DNA of 43,400 bases, taken from Gammaproteobacteria bacterium. Lineage in GTDB: Bacteria > Pseudomonadota > Gammaproteobacteria > HyVt-429. Positions 6,103 through 38,769 of this stretch are shown here, piece after piece. The notes below the pieces were generated by a model that saw nothing but the letters and a program-made list of their open reading frames with translations, had not been told where the DNA came from and did not search any database. The translations under genes were made by a program, and so were the position numbers. The first letter of the stretch is position 1; each line of letters starts with the position of its first letter. The stretch is taken from the NCBI GenBank assembly GCA_022340345.1, contig JAJDOE010000091.1:1-43400 (forward strand). Direction: 5' to 3'.

Positions 6103-7062
6103 ATGACCGATGTAACCATGCGTCAGATGCTGGAGGCCGGCGTACATTTTGGCCACCAGACCCGTTTCTGGTCTCCGCGGATGCGTCCGTATATCTACGG
6201 CGAGCGGGACAAAATCCATATCATCAATCTGGAAAAAAGCCTCCCGCTGCTGAAGGAGGCCATGTCCTACCTGGGCAAGCTGACGGCAGACGGCGGCAGC
6301 GTGCTGTTTGTCGGCACCAAGCGCCAGGCCAGTGAGACCATTCAGGAAGAGGCTACCCGCTGTGGCAGCCCCTATGTGAACCACCGTTGGCTGGGCGGCA
6401 TGCTCACCAATTTCAAAACGGTGAAAAATTCCATTAAGCGGCTCAAGGACCTCGACTCCATGTTCGAGGACGGGGGCATCGACCGGCTCGCCAAGAAAGA
6501 GGCGCTTCGTCTGGACCGGGAGCGGGCCAAGCTGCATCGCAGCCTGGCCGGAATCCGCGACATGGACGGCCTGCCGGACGCGCTATTTGTTATTGATGTG
6601 CGGCATGAATACATCGCCGTTGCCGAAGCCCGCAAGCTGGGAATTCCCGTGGTGGCGGTGATCGACACCAATTGTTCCCCGGACCTTATTGATTACGTCA
6701 TACCCGGGAACGATGACGCCATTCGTGCGATTCGCCTCTATTCCCACTACGCGGCAGAGGCGATTCTCGCCGGGCGCGCCACCGTACCCACCGTGGTTCC
6801 GGAAACGGATGACGAGTACGTGGAAATGGAAGGCGCCGAAGGCTCGGAAAAGCCGGCGGCCCGCACGACCCGTGCCAAGGTGTCAAAAAAGAAGGCGCCG
6901 CGCGTCAAGCTGACCAAGAAAGCGGTCGAGCCGGAAGCTGAGCCGGAAGCCAAAACCGAAGCCGCGGAAGCGACGGCCGATGCACCGCAGGAAGCCGCGG
7001 AAGCTGCCGCCGTTCCCGCGGAAACCGAAGCGGCAGACGAAAGCGGAAAATCCGGAGACTAG
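6103..7062 (+). CDS. rpsB: 30S ribosomal protein S2 with long charged C-terminal tail
   Basis: The protein is a standard S2 core ([20 protein letters not shown] at the start; [14 protein letters not shown] near 93-106; [12 protein letters not shown] near 158-169), needed for S1 binding and 30S assembly. The start at 6103 is preceded by AAGGAG at 6088-6093; an upstream in-frame start at 6046 would read through the leader structure and is rejected. The protein has 319 residues against about 241 in E. coli. The extra part, from about residue 235, splits into a basic block (about 253-273, rich in Lys/Arg) and an Ala/Glu-rich acidic block (276-319). Two bases separate its stop from tsf. The core is certain; the tail's role is unknown. 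Confidence 0.97.
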
Positions 7063-7064
7063 TC

Positions 7065-7943
7065 ATGGCGAATATCACCGCATCCCTGGTAAAGGATCTG
7101 CGCGAACGAACCGGCGCTGGCATGATGGAGTGCAAGAAGGCGCTTACCGAGACCGATGGGGATCTGGAGGCCGCAGCGGACCTGTTGCGCAAAAAAGGCA
7201 GCGCCCAGGCAGCCAAGAAGGCCGGCCGCATTGCAGCCGAAGGGGTCATTGGCCTGGCGCAGGACCAGCAGGCGGCGGCGCTGGTGGAGGTCAACAGCGA
7301 AACCGATTTCGTGGCCAAACAGCCGGTATTCCAGGATTTTGCCAACCAGCTCGCGACGCTGGTCGCCGACCAAAACCCGGCGGACCTGGAGACGCTGCTC
7401 GGGCTGCAGCTACCCGGGGGCGAAGACGCAGAGACCCGTCGTACCGCGCTGGTGGCCCAGTTGGGTGAAAACCTCAAGGTGCGGCGTTTCGTTCGCATCG
7501 CCGCGGATGACGTCCAGCTGGCAAGCTACCTGCACGGCACCCGTATCGGGGTCATCATCAGCGGCCAGGGCGGCGCCGAGGGCCTGGGTCGGGACCTGGC
7601 GATGCACGTGGCGGCCAGCCGTCCCCTGTGTATCAACGAAAGTGAAGTACCGGCGGAAACCCTGGCGCGGGAAAAGGAAATCTACAAAGCCCAGGCCATG
7701 GAAAGCGGCAAGCCGGAGAACATCGCAGAGAAGATGGTCGAAGGTAAAATGCGCAAGTACCTCAAGGAAGTCACCCTGCTCGGCCAGCCATTCGTCAAGG
7801 ATCCGGATATCTCGGTCCAGCAGCTTCTGCAACAGGAAGGCGCAAGCGTGAAGCGCTTTGTTCGTTTCGAAGTGGGCGAAGGCCTGGAGAAGCGCAGCGA
7901 CAATTTCGCCGAAGAGGTAATGGCCCAGGCACGCGGTGCCTGA
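7065..7943 (+). CDS. tsf: Elongation factor Ts
   Basis: EF-Ts (292 residues) recharges EF-Tu by displacing GDP. The N-terminal UBA-like helix region reads VKDLRERTGAGMMECKKAL, followed by the signature VEVNSETDFVAK (about residues 75-86) that includes the Asp-Phe pair that enters EF-Tu. The C-terminal dimerisation and coiled-coil parts are full length. The start at 7065 lies two bases after the rpsB stop, with a GGAG in the end of rpsB, so the two are co-transcribed and probably translationally linked. The downstream gap to pyrH is only six bases. Confidence 0.98.
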   Translation: MANITASLVKDLRERTGAGMMECKKALTETDGDLEAAADLLRKKGSAQAAKKAGRIAAEGVIGLAQDQQAAALVEVNSETDFVAKQPVFQDFANQLATLVADQNPADLETLLGLQLPGGEDAETRRTALVAQLGENLKVRRFVRIAADDVQLASYLHGTRIGVIISGQGGAEGLGRDLAMHVAASRPLCINESEVPAETLAREKEIYKAQAMESGKPENIAEKMVEGKMRKYLKEVTLLGQPFVKDPDISVQQLLQQEGASVKRFVRFEVGEGLEKRSDNFAEEVMAQARGA

Positions 7944-18523: not shown

Positions 18524-19681
18524 GTGCCGGAACCGCTGAAGGTGGCCCTGGTAGCCGGGGAGGCATCCGGCGACGCGCTCGGTGCGGGTCTGATCCGGGA
18601 ATTGCGTGAACGCGAGCCCGATGCCATTTTTTTCGGCATCGGCGGGCCGGCCATGGCCGCTGCCGGTTGTGAATGCTGGCGCCCGATGGAAGATATTTCT
18701 CTCATGGGCTTCGACGAGCTGCTCAGCCGGGGACCCGGCATTTTCCGGTTGCGCAAAGACCTGGCCCGGCAACTCGCGCAACGCAAGCCGGATGTTTTTG
18801 TTGGCATTGATGTTCCGGATTTCAATCTTTCCCTGGAGCGAAAACTGCGCCGCCAGGGAACGCCGGCGATTCATTACGTAAGTCCCACGGTTTGGGCGTG
18901 GCGCAAGTACCGGGTGCGACGCATTCGCGACTCTGTGTCTCATATGCTGACCCTGTTTCCCTTTGAGGCGCGCTTCTACGAAGAACATGGCGTCCCCGTG
19001 ACTTTCGTCGGGCATCCATTGGCCGACCGTATCCCGGAGGAACCGGACCGGAATGCCAGCCGCCTGCAACTCGGACTTTCGGCGGAGGCCCGCGTGCTGG
19101 CGCTGCTCCCCGGCAGCCGCCAGAGCGAATTGCGGCGCCACGCGGAGCTGTTCGTGGAAAGCGCCACCTGGCTTGCTCGTCGTGACCCGGAATTGCAGTT
19201 CATCGCCACGTTTGTCGATGACGTCACCCGGGACCAGTTTGCCGCCGCCCTGCAGGCGCGGCCGGACGCTCCAGACGTGCGGTTGTGGTTGCGAGAGTCC
19301 GCGGCGGTGCTCGGGGCTGCGGATGTGGCACTGTTGGCGTCTGGCACCGCTGCGCTGGAGGCAGCGTTGTTGCGGACGCCGATGGTTGTGACCTACCGCC
19401 TGGGCTGGTTTTCCCACTGGCTGGTGCGGCGAATGGCTAACGTGAAGTTTTTTTCCATGCCAAACCATCTGGCAAGCGAACCGGTCGTGCCGGAACTGAT
19501 CCAGGACGCCGCAACCCCGGAAGCGCTGGGCACGCTGGTGCGGGACCTGCTGGACGATCCGGACCGACGAGCCCGCATGGGCCGTGAGTTTGACGCCATG
19601 TACCGGGATCTGCGTCGTGGCGCCGACCAGCGGGCCGCCCAATGTGTCATCCGAATCGCGCGCGGGGAAGGGTGTGGTTGA
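18524..19681 (+). CDS. lpxB: Lipid A disaccharide synthase
   Basis: LpxB (385 residues, GT19 family) joins UDP-2,3-diacylglucosamine and lipid X to form the lipid A disaccharide at the inner-membrane surface. Recognised segments are VALVAGEASGDALGAGLI at the N-terminus, FVGIDVPDFNL (about 88-98), HYVSPTVWAWRKYRVRRI (about 117-134), ALLPGSRQSELRRH (about 190-203) and the sugar-nucleotide-binding LLASGTAALEAALLRTPMV (about 269-287). It begins at GTG 18524 with GAGGGCAAGG just ahead and lies nine bases after lpxA. In most relatives rnhB follows directly; here a sulfur-gene cassette intervenes. Confidence 0.97.
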   Translation: MPEPLKVALVAGEASGDALGAGLIRELREREPDAIFFGIGGPAMAAAGCECWRPMEDISLMGFDELLSRGPGIFRLRKDLARQLAQRKPDVFVGIDVPDFNLSLERKLRRQGTPAIHYVSPTVWAWRKYRVRRIRDSVSHMLTLFPFEARFYEEHGVPVTFVGHPLADRIPEEPDRNASRLQLGLSAEARVLALLPGSRQSELRRHAELFVESATWLARRDPELQFIATFVDDVTRDQFAAALQARPDAPDVRLWLRESAAVLGAADVALLASGTAALEAALLRTPMVVTYRLGWFSHWLVRRMANVKFFSMPNHLASEPVVPELIQDAATPEALGTLVRDLLDDPDRRARMGREFDAMYRDLRRGADQRAAQCVIRIARGEGCG

Positions 19682-19884: not shown

Positions 19885-20115
19885 ATGGCGGAACGCCAGG
19901 TCATCGATGCGCGAGGCGCCTTCTGCCCGGGACCACTCATGGAGCTGATCGCGGCGCTCAAGCTTGCGGCGGTGGGTGACGAAGTGGAAGTCTGGTCCTC
20001 GGATCAGGGATCCATCAAGGACATTCCGGAATGGATCAAAAAGGTAGGCCACGAAATGGTCGGCATCGAGGAAAGGAAGGGCTATGCGGAGATTGTGGTG
20101 CGAAAATTGAAGTAG
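19885..20115 (+). CDS. TusA-family sulfur-carrier protein
   Basis: The 76-residue protein has the TusA/SirA/YeeD fold signature. The N-terminal VIDARGAFCPGPLMEL carries the persulfide-forming Cys14 in a Cys-Pro-Gly-Pro motif, followed by an amphipathic helix (AALKLAAVGDEVEV) and the final strand pattern. Family members pass sulfane sulfur between proteins, for 2-thiouridine synthesis in E. coli and in the Dsr and Hdr-like sulfur-oxidation pathways. The ATG at 19885 has GGGGA seven bases ahead. Because the next gene encodes a sulfide:quinone oxidoreductase, a role in cytoplasmic sulfur trafficking is more likely than tRNA thiolation, but this is inference. The symbol tusA is not assigned for that reason. 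Confidence 0.88.
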   Translation: MAERQVIDARGAFCPGPLMELIAALKLAAVGDEVEVWSSDQGSIKDIPEWIKKVGHEMVGIEERKGYAEIVVRKLK

Positions 20116-20133
20116 GCGGGCGTTGCTGCCCGC
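20116..20133 (+). other. Small hairpin between the TusA-like gene and sqr
   Basis: GCGGGC (20116-20121) and GCCCGC (20128-20133) form a perfect 6-bp stem with loop GTTGCT, starting right at the stop codon of the TusA-like gene. No T-run follows. It may stabilise the upstream mRNA end or separate expression levels of the two genes, since sqr has its own strong AGGAGGG at 20156-20162. Confidence 0.45.
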
Positions 20134-20166
20134 GTCACCGGGGAATCAACAAGTCAGGAGGGCGAA

Positions 20167-21306
20167 ATGGCTAAGAAGATATTGATTGTTGGAGGTGGCC
20201 TCGCCGGAACAATCGTCGGCAACGGGCTGTGTCGCAAGATCGGATCGGAGCTGTCCCGCGGTGATATTGTCATTACGATGCTCGGGGCAACCAACCAACA
20301 CCTGTACCAGCCGGGACTGCTGTATGTGCCTTTCGGCCGCATCCGGGAATCCGAGCTGGTGCGCGACCAGCGCAAGGTGATCGACAAACGCGTGGTGTTT
20401 CACGTCGACCCGGCGGTCAACATCGACGTGGACAAACAGGAGGTCACAACCGAGTCCGGCCGCGTGCATGGCTACGACTACCTTGTCATCGCGACGGGGT
20501 CCCGGGTAATGCCACAGACGATTCCTGGCATGGCCGAGGGGGCGCACTGGTTCTACGAGCTCGATGCGGCGCGCAAGATGCGGGATGCCCTGGACAAGTT
20601 CGAAGGTGGCAAGGTCGTGGTGAACGTCAATGCACCGCACAAGTGTCCGGTGGCGCCACTTGAGATTACCTTCATGTTGCAGGAACTCTTCGAGCAGCGT
20701 GGTATCGCCGACAAGTGTGAAATCACGTACACGTATCCCATTGGCCGGCTGCACGCCCTCGAGCCGGTGGCGGAATGGGCCCTGCCGGAAATGGAGCAGC
20801 GCGGGATCAAGTACGAAACCTTTTTTAACACCAAATCCGTCGATCCGAAGGCCAGGACGATCACGTCCGAGGAAGGGTCGACGCTCCCATTCGACCTGCT
20901 GGTCACGATCCCCCCCCACCAGGGACAACAGGTGATTGAGGACTCGGATCTGGGCAAGGGCGGTTGGGTACCGACGAATAAGTTGACGCTGCATCGGGAA
21001 GGGTCCGAGAACGTATTTGTCGTGGGCGACACGACCAACATCCCCATTTCCAAGGCGGGATCGACGGCGCACTTCGAGGCAGACACGATCGTGGACAACC
21101 TGGCGTCGCTGCTCACCGAGGGGCGCATGGCGCGCGATTACGATGGCAAGGTCTACTGCTTTGTCGAGACCGGGCTTACGACCGGAACCTACGTGTGGTT
21201 TAACTACACCACGCCACCGAACCCAGGACCGCCGTCGCAGATGATCCACTGGCTCAAGCTCGCATATAACCGGATGTACTGGTTGTCGGCCCGCGGTCTG
21301 CTGTAG
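20167..21306 (+). CDS. sqr: Sulfide:quinone oxidoreductase-family flavoprotein
   Basis: This 379-residue FAD enzyme belongs to the SQR/flavocytochrome c sulfide dehydrogenase group. The FAD dinucleotide motif [16 protein letters not shown] is at 5-20, the second nucleotide motif YLVIATGSRV at 105-114, and the C-terminal FAD segment NVFVVGDTTNI at 282-292. Two cysteines suit the redox centre that takes sulfur from sulfide: C160 in NAPHKCPVAPLE and C331 in GKVYCFVETG; the extra Cys near 128 of some type I enzymes is absent. There is no signal peptide, unlike FccB. The C-terminal HWLKLAYNRMYWLSARGLL looks like an amphipathic membrane anchor. It would oxidise sulfide and reduce quinone at the membrane. 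The start has AGGAGGG, one of the strongest ribosome sites in the window. The SQR subtype was not resolved. Confidence 0.85.
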   Translation: MAKKILIVGGGLAGTIVGNGLCRKIGSELSRGDIVITMLGATNQHLYQPGLLYVPFGRIRESELVRDQRKVIDKRVVFHVDPAVNIDVDKQEVTTESGRVHGYDYLVIATGSRVMPQTIPGMAEGAHWFYELDAARKMRDALDKFEGGKVVVNVNAPHKCPVAPLEITFMLQELFEQRGIADKCEITYTYPIGRLHALEPVAEWALPEMEQRGIKYETFFNTKSVDPKARTITSEEGSTLPFDLLVTIPPHQGQQVIEDSDLGKGGWVPTNKLTLHREGSENVFVVGDTTNIPISKAGSTAHFEADTIVDNLASLLTEGRMARDYDGKVYCFVETGLTTGTYVWFNYTTPPNPGPPSQMIHWLKLAYNRMYWLSARGLL

Positions 21307-21317
21307 GGGGTGGATTC

Positions 21318-21839
21318 ATGAAGACTTCGACGACATCAACGCTCAGCCAGGAAGTCGGCCTGGGTCTGCAGGGCGCAGTAGATGCCCTGACCGACCAGAT
21401 GGTGGAACGCCTTGCGACCACCGCTGGCAACGTGGGCGAAATCGTAGACCGGCTGAATGATCCGGATACGCGGGACGCGGTGCATTCCCTGCTGGATGAG
21501 CTAACCAGCCTGCATCGCGCCGGTGGACTGACTTCGCTGTTCGAACTGGTGCACCTGGCGAATGCGGTGCGCAACGCGGCTACCGACGGGATCGTGGAGC
21601 GACTCGCCGGATTCACCGAGCATATGGTGACCAACGTGGCAAACGAGGAGACCGCGGACCTGTTCCAGACCTTTGCCACGGCGCTTTCCGATGCCCAGCA
21701 ACAGGCGGCAGAGCAGCCGGCGCGGGGAGGCCTGGTGAGCGCGGTACGGCTGCTGTCGGCCCCGGAGACCCAGGACTCCCTGCGCTTCCTGCTGACCTTC
21801 GCCCGGGGGCTGAAGGCCGGCACCCACCCGGTCAGCTAG
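21318..21839 (+). CDS. DUF1641 domain protein
   Basis: This is a 173-residue acidic, helical protein without a signal peptide, membrane span or cysteine. The repeated pattern of helices ending in GLTSLFELVHLANAVRNAAT (about 74-93) and LVSAVRLLSAPETQDSLRFLL (about 137-157) is that of DUF1641, a family of unknown function. Its members are found beside sulfide:quinone oxidoreductases and, in Bacillus (YrhD), beside a formate-dehydrogenase-like gene. It lies 11 bases after sqr with GGGGG ahead of the ATG, so it is co-expressed with the flavoprotein. A regulatory or docking partner of SQR is the natural guess, but nothing in the sequence proves it. Confidence 0.8.
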   Translation: MKTSTTSTLSQEVGLGLQGAVDALTDQMVERLATTAGNVGEIVDRLNDPDTRDAVHSLLDELTSLHRAGGLTSLFELVHLANAVRNAATDGIVERLAGFTEHMVTNVANEETADLFQTFATALSDAQQQAAEQPARGGLVSAVRLLSAPETQDSLRFLLTFARGLKAGTHPVS

Positions 21840-21967: not shown

Positions 21968-22579
21968 ATGCGCCATCCCAATCGTCCACGGGCCCTTCCC
22001 AGCACCGTGGTGGCGGGTGTAGACGAGGCCGGCCGCGGGCCGCTGGCGGGCCCGGTGCTGGCGGCGGCGGTGATGCTGCCGGCGGATCATGGCTTGGTGG
22101 GGTTGCGCGACAGCAAGCGCCTCAGTCCCCGGCAGCGCGACCGGCTGGCCAGCGAAATTCGTTCCCGTGCCGTGTGCTGGGCGGTGGGGCGGGCAGAGGT
22201 AGAGGAAATCGATCGGCTCAACATTCTCAGGGCAACGCTGAATGCCATGCGTCGCGCGGTGGAGGGCCTGCCGGTGGCTCCTGGCTGGGTGGTCGTGGAT
22301 GGTCCTTTTCGGCCAACGCTGGTGGTGCCGTGCCAGGCGCTGGTGCGGGGCGACGACCTGGTTCCGGAGATTTCCGCTGCTTCCATTCTCGCGAAAGTGG
22401 AGCGCGACAGCGAGATGTGTGGCCTGGGTGAACGCTACCCGGTGTACGGTTTCGAACAGCACAAGGGGTACGCCACACGTGCGCACCTGGAGGCGTTGGC
22501 CCGATACGGCGCCAGTCCGGCGCACCGGCGAAGTTTCGCCCCGGTGCGCGCTGCGATGGCAACGGAGCAGGCTTCTTGA
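21968..22579 (+). CDS. rnhB: Ribonuclease HII
   Basis: RNase HII cuts RNA in RNA-DNA hybrids, notably at single ribonucleotides in DNA. The 203-residue protein has the family signature [24 protein letters not shown] (Asp and Glu of the DEAGRG motif, residues 19-24), then [12 protein letters not shown] (about 46-57) and the third acidic site in [10 protein letters not shown]. It lacks long extensions. The region in front (21840-21967) contains the cassette hairpin and a possible -10 (TATCAT), so rnhB-dnaE may have its own promoter. Its stop overlaps dnaE as TTGA. Confidence 0.96.
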
Positions 22580-34389: not shown

Positions 34390-36153
34390 GTGGGCATCGC
34401 GCGGCGCCGTTTTGATTGCCTCGTGATTGGTGCCGGCGGGGGTGGCCTGCGTGCCGCCCTGCAGTTGGCCCAGGAGGACCTGCACGTGGCGGTGGTATCC
34501 AAGGTGTTCCCGACCCGATCCCACACGGTCGCGGCCCAGGGCGGCATCAACGCGGCGCTCGGAAATGCCTTGCCGGACAACTGGCACTGGCACATGTACG
34601 ACACCGTCAAGGGAAGTGATTACCTGGGTGACCAGGATGCCATTGAATACATGTGTCGGGTCGCGCCGCGACTGGTGATCGAACTGGAACATTACGGCGT
34701 GCCGTTCACGCGCCTGGACAATGGTCGTATCTACCAGCGCGCCTTTGGCGGGCAAAGTCAGAATTTCGGAGGCGACCAGGCGGCACGCACCTGCCCGGCG
34801 GCAGATCGCACCGGGCACGCGCTGCTGCACACGCTGTACCAGCAGAATATGCGAGCCCAGACCCATTTCTTCGATGAATATTTCGCCATCGACCTGTTGC
34901 GCGACGAAGAGGGATTCGTGGTGGGCGCGCTGGTGCTGGATATCGAAAGCGGTGAGCCGCTGGTTATCGAAGCCAAAACCACCCTGCTGGCCACTGGCGG
35001 CGCCTGCCGGATTTTCCGCACCTCCAGCAACGCCATGATCAACACCGGAGATGGCATCGGCATGGCGTTGCGAGCCGGTTTGCCGGCGCAGGACATGGAG
35101 TTCGTGCAGTTTCATCCCACTGGCATCGCCGGCTACGGCATGCTCATCAGCGAAGGGGTTCGCGGGGAGGGCGGCTATCTTGTCAACAAGGACGGCGAAC
35201 GCTTTATGGAGCGCTATGCGCCCAAGGCCCTGGACCTGGCGAGCCGCGACGTGGTCAGTCGTTCGATCGCCATCGAGCTTCGCGAGGGCCGTGGTTGCGG
35301 ACCCGACGGGGATCACGTGCTGCTGAAGGTGGACCATCTGGGCGCGGACCTGATCAAGAAACGCCTGCCGGGTATTCGGGAAAGCGCCATGCATTTTGCC
35401 GGTACCGATCCCTGTGAGGTTCCCATCCCGGTCGCTCCGACCGCGCATTATTCCATGGGAGGCATTCCCACCAACCTGCACGGGCAGGTGGTGGCGCCAG
35501 AACGCCATGGTCCGGAGGAAGCCGTCCCGGGACTGTATGCCGCCGGAGAGTGCGCCTGTGTATCGGTGCACGGCGCCAACCGCCTGGGTGGCAATTCCCT
35601 GCTCGACATCATTGTTTTCGGCCGTGCTGCCGGGGAACACATGGCGGAGTACATCCGCGAAAATCCATACAACCGACCGGTAGCAGATGAGGCCGTTGAT
35701 CGCGCCATGCAGGGTCTAAGCCGCTGGGATCGCAAGGGTGACGGGATTTCGGTGGCGGACATGTACGACCGCATGTCCCGGGTGATGGAGCAGAACTGCA
35801 GCGTGTTCCGCACCGAAGAGGTAATGGCCGAAGGCGTCAAAAGGATCCTGGAACTCGAAGAACAGCTGGAGGATGTGCGCCTGTCCGATCACAGTCGTAC
35901 ATTCAATACCGCCCGGATCGAGGCGCTGGAACTGGGCAACCTGATGGAAGTGGCGGTGGCCACCATGCTGTCGGCGGCAGCGCGAACCGAAAGCCGCGGC
36001 GCTCATTCGCACGTGGACTACCCGGACCGGGATGACAAAAACTGGCTGAAGCACACCCTGTATCTGAAGGACGGCCATGTTCTGGACTACAAACCGGTGC
36101 GCATGCGGCCCCTGAGCGTCGAGGCGTTTCCGCCCAAGGAGCGAGTCTATTGA
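34390..36153 (+). CDS. sdhA: Succinate dehydrogenase flavoprotein subunit
   Basis: SdhA oxidises succinate to fumarate with covalently bound FAD. From GTG 34390 the protein has 587 residues (E. coli 588) and the FAD-linking His falls at residue 45 in TRSHTVAAQGGINAAL, as in E. coli, which supports this start over a GTG at 34354 inside sdhD. The dinucleotide motif FDCLVIGAGGGGLRAAL is at 8-24. Active-site segments include FVQFHPTGIAGYG, GEGGYLVNKDGERF and the capping HYSMGGIPTN, with GANRLGGNSLLDIIVFG at the end of the flavin domain. Covalent flavinylation would be helped by SdhE, encoded three genes on. Confidence 0.98.
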   Translation: MGIARRRFDCLVIGAGGGGLRAALQLAQEDLHVAVVSKVFPTRSHTVAAQGGINAALGNALPDNWHWHMYDTVKGSDYLGDQDAIEYMCRVAPRLVIELEHYGVPFTRLDNGRIYQRAFGGQSQNFGGDQAARTCPAADRTGHALLHTLYQQNMRAQTHFFDEYFAIDLLRDEEGFVVGALVLDIESGEPLVIEAKTTLLATGGACRIFRTSSNAMINTGDGIGMALRAGLPAQDMEFVQFHPTGIAGYGMLISEGVRGEGGYLVNKDGERFMERYAPKALDLASRDVVSRSIAIELREGRGCGPDGDHVLLKVDHLGADLIKKRLPGIRESAMHFAGTDPCEVPIPVAPTAHYSMGGIPTNLHGQVVAPERHGPEEAVPGLYAAGECACVSVHGANRLGGNSLLDIIVFGRAAGEHMAEYIRENPYNRPVADEAVDRAMQGLSRWDRKGDGISVADMYDRMSRVMEQNCSVFRTEEVMAEGVKRILELEEQLEDVRLSDHSRTFNTARIEALELGNLMEVAVATMLSAAARTESRGAHSHVDYPDRDDKNWLKHTLYLKDGHVLDYKPVRMRPLSVEAFPPKERVY

Positions 36154-37099: not shown

Positions 37100-38769
37100 T
37101 TTGACCCGGCTGCCTCTCCTCCCACCAGGTCACTTTCAAAAGTCGGCTCCGGCGGCACCAGCAGGGTGTCATGGGCCAGATCCGGATCGGTTTGGGGATA
37201 ATTGCGGGTAAAATGCAGGCCACGGCTCTCCTTGCGGGCCTGGGCGCAGCGTACCGTCAGCTCCGCCACCAGCACCAGGTTGCGCAATTCCAGTAGATCG
37301 GAAGTGACCCGGAAATTCCGATAGTACTCGGCGATTTCCTCATGCAGCAGGTCAATGCGTCGCCGTGCGCGCTTCAGGCGTTTGTCGGTACGCACGATAC
37401 CGACGTAGTCCCACATGGCGCGGCGAAGTTCGTCCCAGTTGTGGGATACCACGATCTGTTCATCGGCGTCCGTGACCCGGCTTTCGTCCCAGGCCGGCAG
37501 CGGTGGCAGCGCATCCGAAATCGGTGTCCGCGCCAGGATATCCTCGGCGACCGCTTCCCCGTAGACCAGGCATTCCAGCAGCGAGTTGCTGGCGAGGCGG
37601 TTGGCGCCATGCAGGCCGGTGAACGAAACCTCCCCCAATGCGTACAGGCCAGGGAGATCGGTACGTCCGTGCGCGTCTATGGCAATCCCGCCGCAGGTGT
37701 AATGGGCCGCCGGCACCACCGGGATCGGTCCGGTAGTCAGATCGAAGCCAAACGTCTTTACCCTGCGGGAAATATTGGGAAAATGTTCCTGGATGAAGGC
37801 AGCATCGCGGTGGGAGATGTCCAGGTAGACGTGATCGTATCCACCCTTTTTCATCTCAAAGTCGATCGCTCGCGCGACCACGTCGCGGGGAGCCAGTTCC
37901 GCTTCCGGATGATGGCGGATCATAAAAGCCTCGCCATCGGGGAGTAGCAGCCGTGCTCCTTCGCCGCGGAGCGCCTCGGAGATCAGGAACGATTTCGCCT
38001 GGGGGTGGTACAGGCAGGTGGGATGGAACTGCACGAATTCCATGTTGGCCACCCGGCAACCGGCACGCCAGGCGATGGCGATGCCGTCGCCGGTGGCGGT
38101 ATCCGGGTTGCTGGTATACAGGTAGACCTTGGACGCGCCACCGGTGGCGAGCACCACCGCATTGGCCGCCAGCGTGACCACCCGGTTGCGGGATTCGTCC
38201 AGTGCATACAGGCCGACGCAACGGTTCGGGGCCGCAGGATGGAGCTTGCGGCTGGTGATCAGGTCGATGGCCAGGTGGTTCTCCAGAATGCGAATACGAG
38301 GGTGGTCCCGAACCAGCTGCTCTAGCGTGGTAGTGACCACCTGGCCCGTAGTGTCGTGGGCGTGCACCACGCGGCGGTGGGAATGTCCACCTTCCCGGGT
38401 CAGGTGGTAGCGGCTGGAGCCGGCTGCGTCCTCCGCGGGATCAAAAACTACGCCCAGTTCGCTGAGCCAGCGGATCGCCTCCGGACCACGGCGCACCACC
38501 TGTTCGACGGTATCCACGTGGCACAGTCCGGCGCCGGCAAGCAGGGTGTCCTGCACGTGGGAATCAAAGGAATCCCGGGTGTCCTGGACCGCTGCGATTC
38601 CGCCCTGGGCATACAGGCTGGAACCCTCGGTCAGGGCGGTCTTGGCCACCAGCGTGACCTGGCGGTGGACCGCCAGGCGCAGCGCGGTGCCCAGCCCCGC
38701 CAGGCCGCCGCCTACGATAATGATGTCGTTTTCTTTCAGGACCGTGCGCTCCGGGGAAAGTGTTATCAT
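37096..38769 (-). CDS. nadB: L-aspartate oxidase
   Basis: NadB oxidises aspartate to iminoaspartate, the first step of de novo NAD synthesis, using FAD and oxygen or fumarate. It is homologous to SdhA. The 557-residue protein shows the FAD motif [18 protein letters not shown] (15-32), [17 protein letters not shown] (about 48-64), the active-site segments [12 protein letters not shown] and [20 protein letters not shown], and [17 protein letters not shown]. It starts at ATG 38769; the N-terminal ~14 residues are longer than in E. coli, so a later non-ATG start is possible. Divergence from rpoE is conserved in E. coli and Pseudomonas. Confidence 0.96.

Follow-up and report, generated by a model that had tools for sequence, protein, structure and literature searches.

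Gene content of the cassette between lpxB and rnhB

The window, by which we mean the entire stretch of 43,400 nucleotides analysed here, contains three genes in a row that encode a TusA-like sulfur carrier, a flavoprotein resembling type III sulfide:quinone oxidoreductases (SQR) and a DUF1641 protein. All three lie on the forward strand, at the coordinates given in the preliminary description. The genes and their neighbours are:

18524-19681, + strand: lpxB, upstream neighbour and left border of the proposed insertion
19885-20115, + strand: tusA-like sulfur carrier gene (76 amino acids; Cys14 in a CPGP motif; PF01206)
20167-21306, + strand: type III-like SQR flavoprotein gene (379 amino acids; Cys160 and Cys331)
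21318-21839, + strand: DUF1641 protein gene (173 amino acids; two helical repeat units; PF07849)
21968-22579, + strand: rnhB, downstream neighbour and right border of the proposed insertion

The trio had also been placed inside a lipid A/replication operon. This holds for its position, but gaps of 203 bp between lpxB and tusA and of 128 bp between the DUF1641 gene and rnhB set the cassette apart. Co-transcription with lpxB and rnhB is therefore left as a candidate arrangement. A scan for promoters and terminators around the cassette was uninformative, returning no promoter-like sites and one terminator-like match, which was on the opposite strand and below the shuffle mean. Inspection by eye revealed no obvious signal peptide in the TusA, SQR or DUF1641 proteins. 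Elsewhere in the window, long open frames at 34414-35061 (+ strand) and 38065-38727 (- strand) gave weak matches to the AprA model and probably encode other FAD-binding proteins.

In Escherichia coli K-12 lpxB and rnhB overlap, and rnhB directly follows lpxB in the three same-family genomes sampled as well as in nine other relatives. A close copy of the window SQR is absent from each of the three same-family genomes. We infer that the cassette was inserted between lpxB and rnhB at an idiosyncratic site, so that its neighbours are uninformative about its function. A function tied to the lpx region was rejected, since none of the other cassette loci has lpx/rnhB flanks and relatives possess the uninterrupted pair.

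The same genome encodes a second cassette, on contig C155:

6030-6422: dsrE
6445-6672: tusA
6751-7884: SQR gene, product 53% identical to the window SQR
following the SQR gene: DUF1641-like gene

The two SQRs fall in well-separated clades, which argues that the cassettes did not arise by recent duplication. The DUF1641-like protein on C155 had no Pfam match and was found with the cassette profile, whose seeds included that protein. The dsrE gene upstream of tusA, present in the usual cassette, is absent from the window copy. The dsrE partner, the second cassette and an rDsr pathway all lie outside the window, and the preliminary description missed them for this reason. On one side of the C155 cassette (L095:1697-9829) lie a CbtA-like gene and an ABC transporter whose binding protein is NMT1-like; DUF1326 and PpoB2/copper-chaperone-like genes lie on the other.

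Conservation of the cassette across phyla

A scan of genome contigs yielded 80 loci whose SQRs are about 55-78% identical to the window SQR; as the closest matches, they share common ancestry and are not representative of all type III SQRs. Neighbouring genes were detected with HMMs derived from proteins of the cassette itself. Of 79 testable loci, 78 encode TusA directly upstream of SQR; all 78 loci testable for DUF1641 encode it directly downstream, and both flanks are occupied in 76 of 77. At L040, the single exception to this combined count, tusA is still just upstream of the SQR gene and was missed by the automatic rule because the SQR ORF had been extended too far upstream. A dsrE gene lies 5' of tusA in 65 of 79 loci. 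When neighbouring ORFs were compared all-versus-all, the only recurrent families around SQR were SQR, TusA, DUF1641 and DsrE (the next family occurred in 10 loci), indicating that the cassette is self-contained. The adjacency of the cassette genes is far beyond chance, and the gene content and conservation of the cassette are near certain.

Carriers are Alpha-, Beta- and Gammaproteobacteria, Magnetococcales, Nitrospirota and one Bacillota MAG; cultivated ones are found in Magnetospirillum fulvum and Paramagnetospirillum (loci L054, L025 and L028). The preliminary description had named adjacency in this strain alone as an outcome that would speak against its reading; this was tested, and the trio is spread across several phyla. 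The cassette is uncommon: of 299 genomes sampled from the phylum, 11 encode an SQR of this type at E <= 1e-40. Distant SQRs (L014 and L117-L119, 33-40% identity) had no TusA or DUF1641 gene within 1.5 kb, so that the association belongs to the clade of the window SQR. At L012, SQR and DUF1641 persist, but TusA was not detected within 1.5 kb. Pairwise distances correlate with those of SQR for TusA (Mantel r 0.66), DUF1641 (0.90) and DsrE (0.89), which is a sign of joint inheritance and no evidence on function.

Several loci depart from the common layout. In the Bacillota MAG (L083) the same parts are reordered, with dsrE 3' of DUF1641 rather than 5' of tusA. Several alphaproteobacterial loci (L005, L006, L022, L023, L026, L030 and L031) have dsrE2 and a second tusA, of CPLP type, 5' of the cassette, and thus hold both CPGP and CPLP TusA types in one cluster. 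A different SQR setting was seen in a relative at L118:260-1481, where, as judged by eye, an ORF resembling a regulator and a short ORF resembling DsrE lie ahead of a distant SQR (34% identity).

Relationship of the flavoprotein to known SQRs

The window SQR matches Pyr_redox_2 in Pfam (1.8e-15) and scores 344 bits (1e-102) against NF049943, the selenoprotein subtype of type III SQR, where the cut-off is 525. Judged by these scores, it is related to, yet outside, that subtype. By sequence, human SQOR (1.4e-27) and other SQRs are its closest solved relatives. An AlphaFold2 model of the protein (pLDDT 91.8) was searched against the PDB by fold, and its best matches were SQRs, including human SQOR at a TM-score of 0.86. 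NDH-2 enzymes ranked lower in both the sequence and the fold match lists. Flavocytochrome c was considered as an alternative sulfide oxidase and rejected, as the FCSD_central model found no match.

Cys160 and Cys331, the two cysteines named in the preliminary description, are the right ones: both are identical in 80 of 80 relatives, while the remaining cysteines, C22 and C184, are not conserved in this set. The canonical pair of a cable-bacterial type III SQR is Cys159 and Cys339 (PMC13047784). A type III SQR from Caldivirga reportedly binds membranes unaided when oligomeric, according to a citation in the same paper (PMC13047784), and a coupling subunit may therefore be dispensable in some systems.

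DUF1641 as a probable membrane-coupling subunit

The window DUF1641 protein matches PF07849 at 1.6e-7 (31.5 bits against a cut-off of 21). We built a profile from 48 cassette DUF1641 proteins and searched it against all PDB chains. It matched YjlC (7.1e-7), an entry named 'NDH-2 membrane coupling protein' (1.4e-6) and, weakly, ForE1 (0.0029); HucM was absent among the matches in this set. YjlC is itself a member of PF07849 in Pfam, and its partner YjlD, an NDH-2, shares the SQR fold. The family profile was required to see these relationships, as a PDB search with the single window sequence gave chance matches only. A monomer model of the protein was all-helical with a pTM of 0.37, and a Foldseek search of this model against the PDB found nothing significant, which at so low a pTM was not counted as a negative.

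The helical repeat of cassette DUF1641 proteins is about 60-65 amino acids long, and 1, 2, 3 or 5 units were detected between loci; those of the window protein span residues 19-76 and 82-145. The number of repeats varies (L011:2643-3611, L021:7157-7870 and window 21318-21839 being examples), which gives the impression of a stalk that differs in length. The repeats are visible only in protein profiles, the DUF1641 gene containing no DNA repeats. The window protein has no cysteine and there is no conserved cysteine column among 84 relatives, in contrast to cassette DsrE, in which a single cysteine is invariant (75 of 75). DUF1641 is therefore unlikely to be a sulfur carrier.

In the phylum sample, Pfam DUF1641 was detected in 2 of 299 genomes, adjoining SQR in both, and this count is a lower bound because the short Pfam model is insensitive. 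Formate oxidation by ForC requires ForE, which is linked to menaquinone (PMC8808070); a review credits ForE with mediating the passage of electrons to the quinone pool of the membrane (PMC13397495). From its homology to YjlC and ForE and its conserved pairing with SQR (78 of 78), we suggest that DUF1641 is probably a membrane- or quinone-coupling subunit of SQR.

Sulfur carriers and the sulfur oxidation pathway

The window TusA, with Cys14 in its CPGP motif, matches PF01206 well above the cut-off (1.1e-21; 76.9 bits against 28.6) but reaches only 30.1 bits against NF001423, the E. coli-type equivalog, where the cut-off is 78. We therefore place it in the TusA family, outside the E. coli-type equivalog, as far as profile scores can tell. 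Its best solved relative is Thermoplasma Ta1170/Ta1414 (PDB 1pav, 1.7e-24). The CPGP motif is found in all 78 SQR-adjacent TusA proteins, while the DsrE2-linked TusA proteins in cassette loci are of CPLP type, suggesting that the former are dedicated partners. Only two TusA proteins were found in this genome, which is 94% complete, and both are encoded within SQR cassettes.

Outside the cassettes, the genome, examined one pathway gene family at a time, encodes an oxidative rDsr set comprising dsrAB, dsrEFH, dsrC and dsrL. The dsrA gene is at the end of contig C13, and dsrB-E-F-H-C-M-K-L-J-O-P are on contig C170; DsrE, DsrF, DsrH and DsrC were confirmed by Pfam, and the other dsr genes were named by eye from order and sequence. 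SoxB and AprA are also encoded. By its predicted proteins, this is the gene set of a sulfur oxidiser. The earlier statement that no rhodanese is present is right for the window stretch only, since the genome has 11 rhodanese-domain matches.

In Allochromatium, sulfur passes from TusA to DsrEFH and on to DsrC (PMC4175335), and the same order was obtained in vitro with cable-bacterial proteins (PMC13293266). If this relay holds here, the cassette TusA would be the feeder of DsrEFH and the adjoining SQR its nearest candidate donor. The simplest reading, and a fairly likely one, is that SQR hands its sulfur to TusA, given that the only two TusA proteins both occur in SQR cassettes and that TusA is a known feeder of the rDsr route. 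TusA is taken to be cytoplasmic. A published model in which the type III SQR of cable bacteria faces the periplasm (PMC13293266) counts against a hand-off, as TusA would then be out of reach.

A proposed route of sulfide oxidation and its alternatives

We propose that the cassette is a module for sulfide oxidation that was acquired by this genome and settled between lpxB and rnhB. As expected for its family, SQR would oxidise sulfide at Cys160 and Cys331 and reduce its FAD, while the DUF1641 protein, by homology and conserved pairing, may couple SQR to the membrane and provide access to quinone. The sulfane sulfur would be taken by Cys14 of TusA, with the cassette DsrE presumably joining in in most carriers. 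From TusA it could move on to DsrEFH and DsrC, which are encoded elsewhere in the genome, and finally be oxidised by rDsrAB. That DUF1641 coupling and the hand-off to TusA both apply is, in our estimate, slightly favoured. A stricter version is doubtful: here a single assembly would send electrons to quinone by way of a DUF1641 stalk whose length varies (1 to 5 units detected) and sulfur from the SQR cysteine straight to TusA and DsrE, with no release of free polysulfide.

The sulfur side of this proposal has two alternatives. SQR may simply detoxify sulfide and release polysulfide or low-molecular-weight persulfide with no direct relay, the genes being clustered by co-regulation and TusA and DsrE being loaded by rhodaneses or serving tRNA thiolation or cofactor synthesis. 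The rhodanese-domain proteins of this genome could load TusA, as a rhodanese does in Allochromatium (PMC4175335), and the Methylacidiphilum operon of type III SQR, tusA and dsrE2 has been read as converting sulfide to elemental sulfur (PMC10205796). Any housekeeping function of TusA would, moreover, have to be filled by the same two proteins of this genome. Such a loose association is, however, at odds with the invariable CPGP motif of the SQR-adjacent TusA and a gene order fixed across phyla, which suggest a dedicated partner, and we regard it as unlikely. The other alternative is that the flavoprotein acts on persulfide or thiosulfonate bound to TusA or DsrE, or runs reductively with a quinol donor. 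A protein-bound substrate would suit the fixed gene set, and in Metallosphaera TusA and DsrE3A carry tetrathionate-derived thiosulfonate and are inert to sulfide and polysulfide; these archaeal proteins reacted with tetrathionate only, not with GSSH or polysulfide (PMC4175335), which also counts against the route proposed above. We nevertheless judge this second alternative improbable, because the SQR fold as a whole and the two catalytic cysteines have been retained and H2S induces a related operon with a type III SQR (PMC10205796).

The preliminary description had proposed DUF1641 as a regulator or as a docking protein between SQR and TusA. A helical protein with no conserved cysteines and a variable number of repeats could bind partners. 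The profile matches instead place DUF1641 with YjlC and ForE. Its relatives of solved structure connect oxidoreductases with the membrane or the quinone pool, and these enzymes have no TusA partner in the cited literature. L012, which keeps DUF1641 beside SQR with no nearby TusA, likewise argues against such a role. We consider a regulatory or docking role very improbable.

Comparison with known systems

SQR with TusA and DsrE carriers is already on record in the Methylacidiphilum operon, cst and yrk. In Methylacidiphilum fumariolicum SolV, MFUM_v2_0219-21 comprise type III SQR, tusA and a dsrE gene and are induced by H2S (PMC10205796); compared by its published description, this operon differs in having DsrE2, and DUF1641 is unmentioned there (PMC10205796). 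In the cst operon of Staphylococcus and the yrk cluster of Bacillus licheniformis, SQR genes are grouped with rhodanese, TusA and DsrE functions (PMC9918477). Persulfide dioxygenase and rhodanese, both of which are included there, are missing from the four recurrent families of the cassette. In the rhd-tusA-dsrE2 and TusA-DsrEFH-DsrC relay of sulfur oxidisers, TusA feeds DsrEFH, and rDsr genes are present here too (PMC4175335; PMC13293266). Unlike in rhd-tusA-dsrE2, the cassette tusA adjoins sqr and not a rhodanese gene. A candidate donor of TusA can be named for sulfide oxidisers whose tusA adjoins no rhodanese gene.

What appears to be new is that a ForE/YjlC-type protein is here paired with an oxidoreductase of a third type, and the pair joined to sulfur carriers. 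YjlC-YjlD of Bacillus subtilis (PDB 9pxk, 9snk and 9a63) likewise combines a DUF1641 protein with a quinone-reducing two-Rossmann-fold flavoprotein; going by the titles of these PDB entries, it differs in using NADH and having no sulfur carriers. In the ForCE formate dehydrogenase (PDB 8RQZ), ForE is the DUF1641 subunit needed to link the enzyme to menaquinone (PMC8808070; PMC13397495), but the catalytic subunit is an unrelated molybdenum enzyme and ForE1 matched the cassette profile only weakly (0.0029). If our reading is true, ForE/YjlC-type membrane coupling, known from formate dehydrogenase and NDH-2, also serves sulfide oxidation, and DUF1641, formerly of unassigned function, gains a testable role. 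Our literature search, which did not reach a 2025 study of the ForE scaffold (doi 10.1038/s41594-025-01607-4), found no paper discussing DUF1641 with SQR; the novelty would be lower if that study already counts SQR among the partners. In Huc hydrogenase, the helical HucM stalk lets a soluble enzyme reach menaquinone (PMC10017518), which resembles the role proposed for DUF1641; this likeness concerns the proposed working only, and HucM is not claimed as a relative. A published table for Ignicoccus numbers a DUF1641 gene next to an FAD oxidoreductase (PMC3149612).
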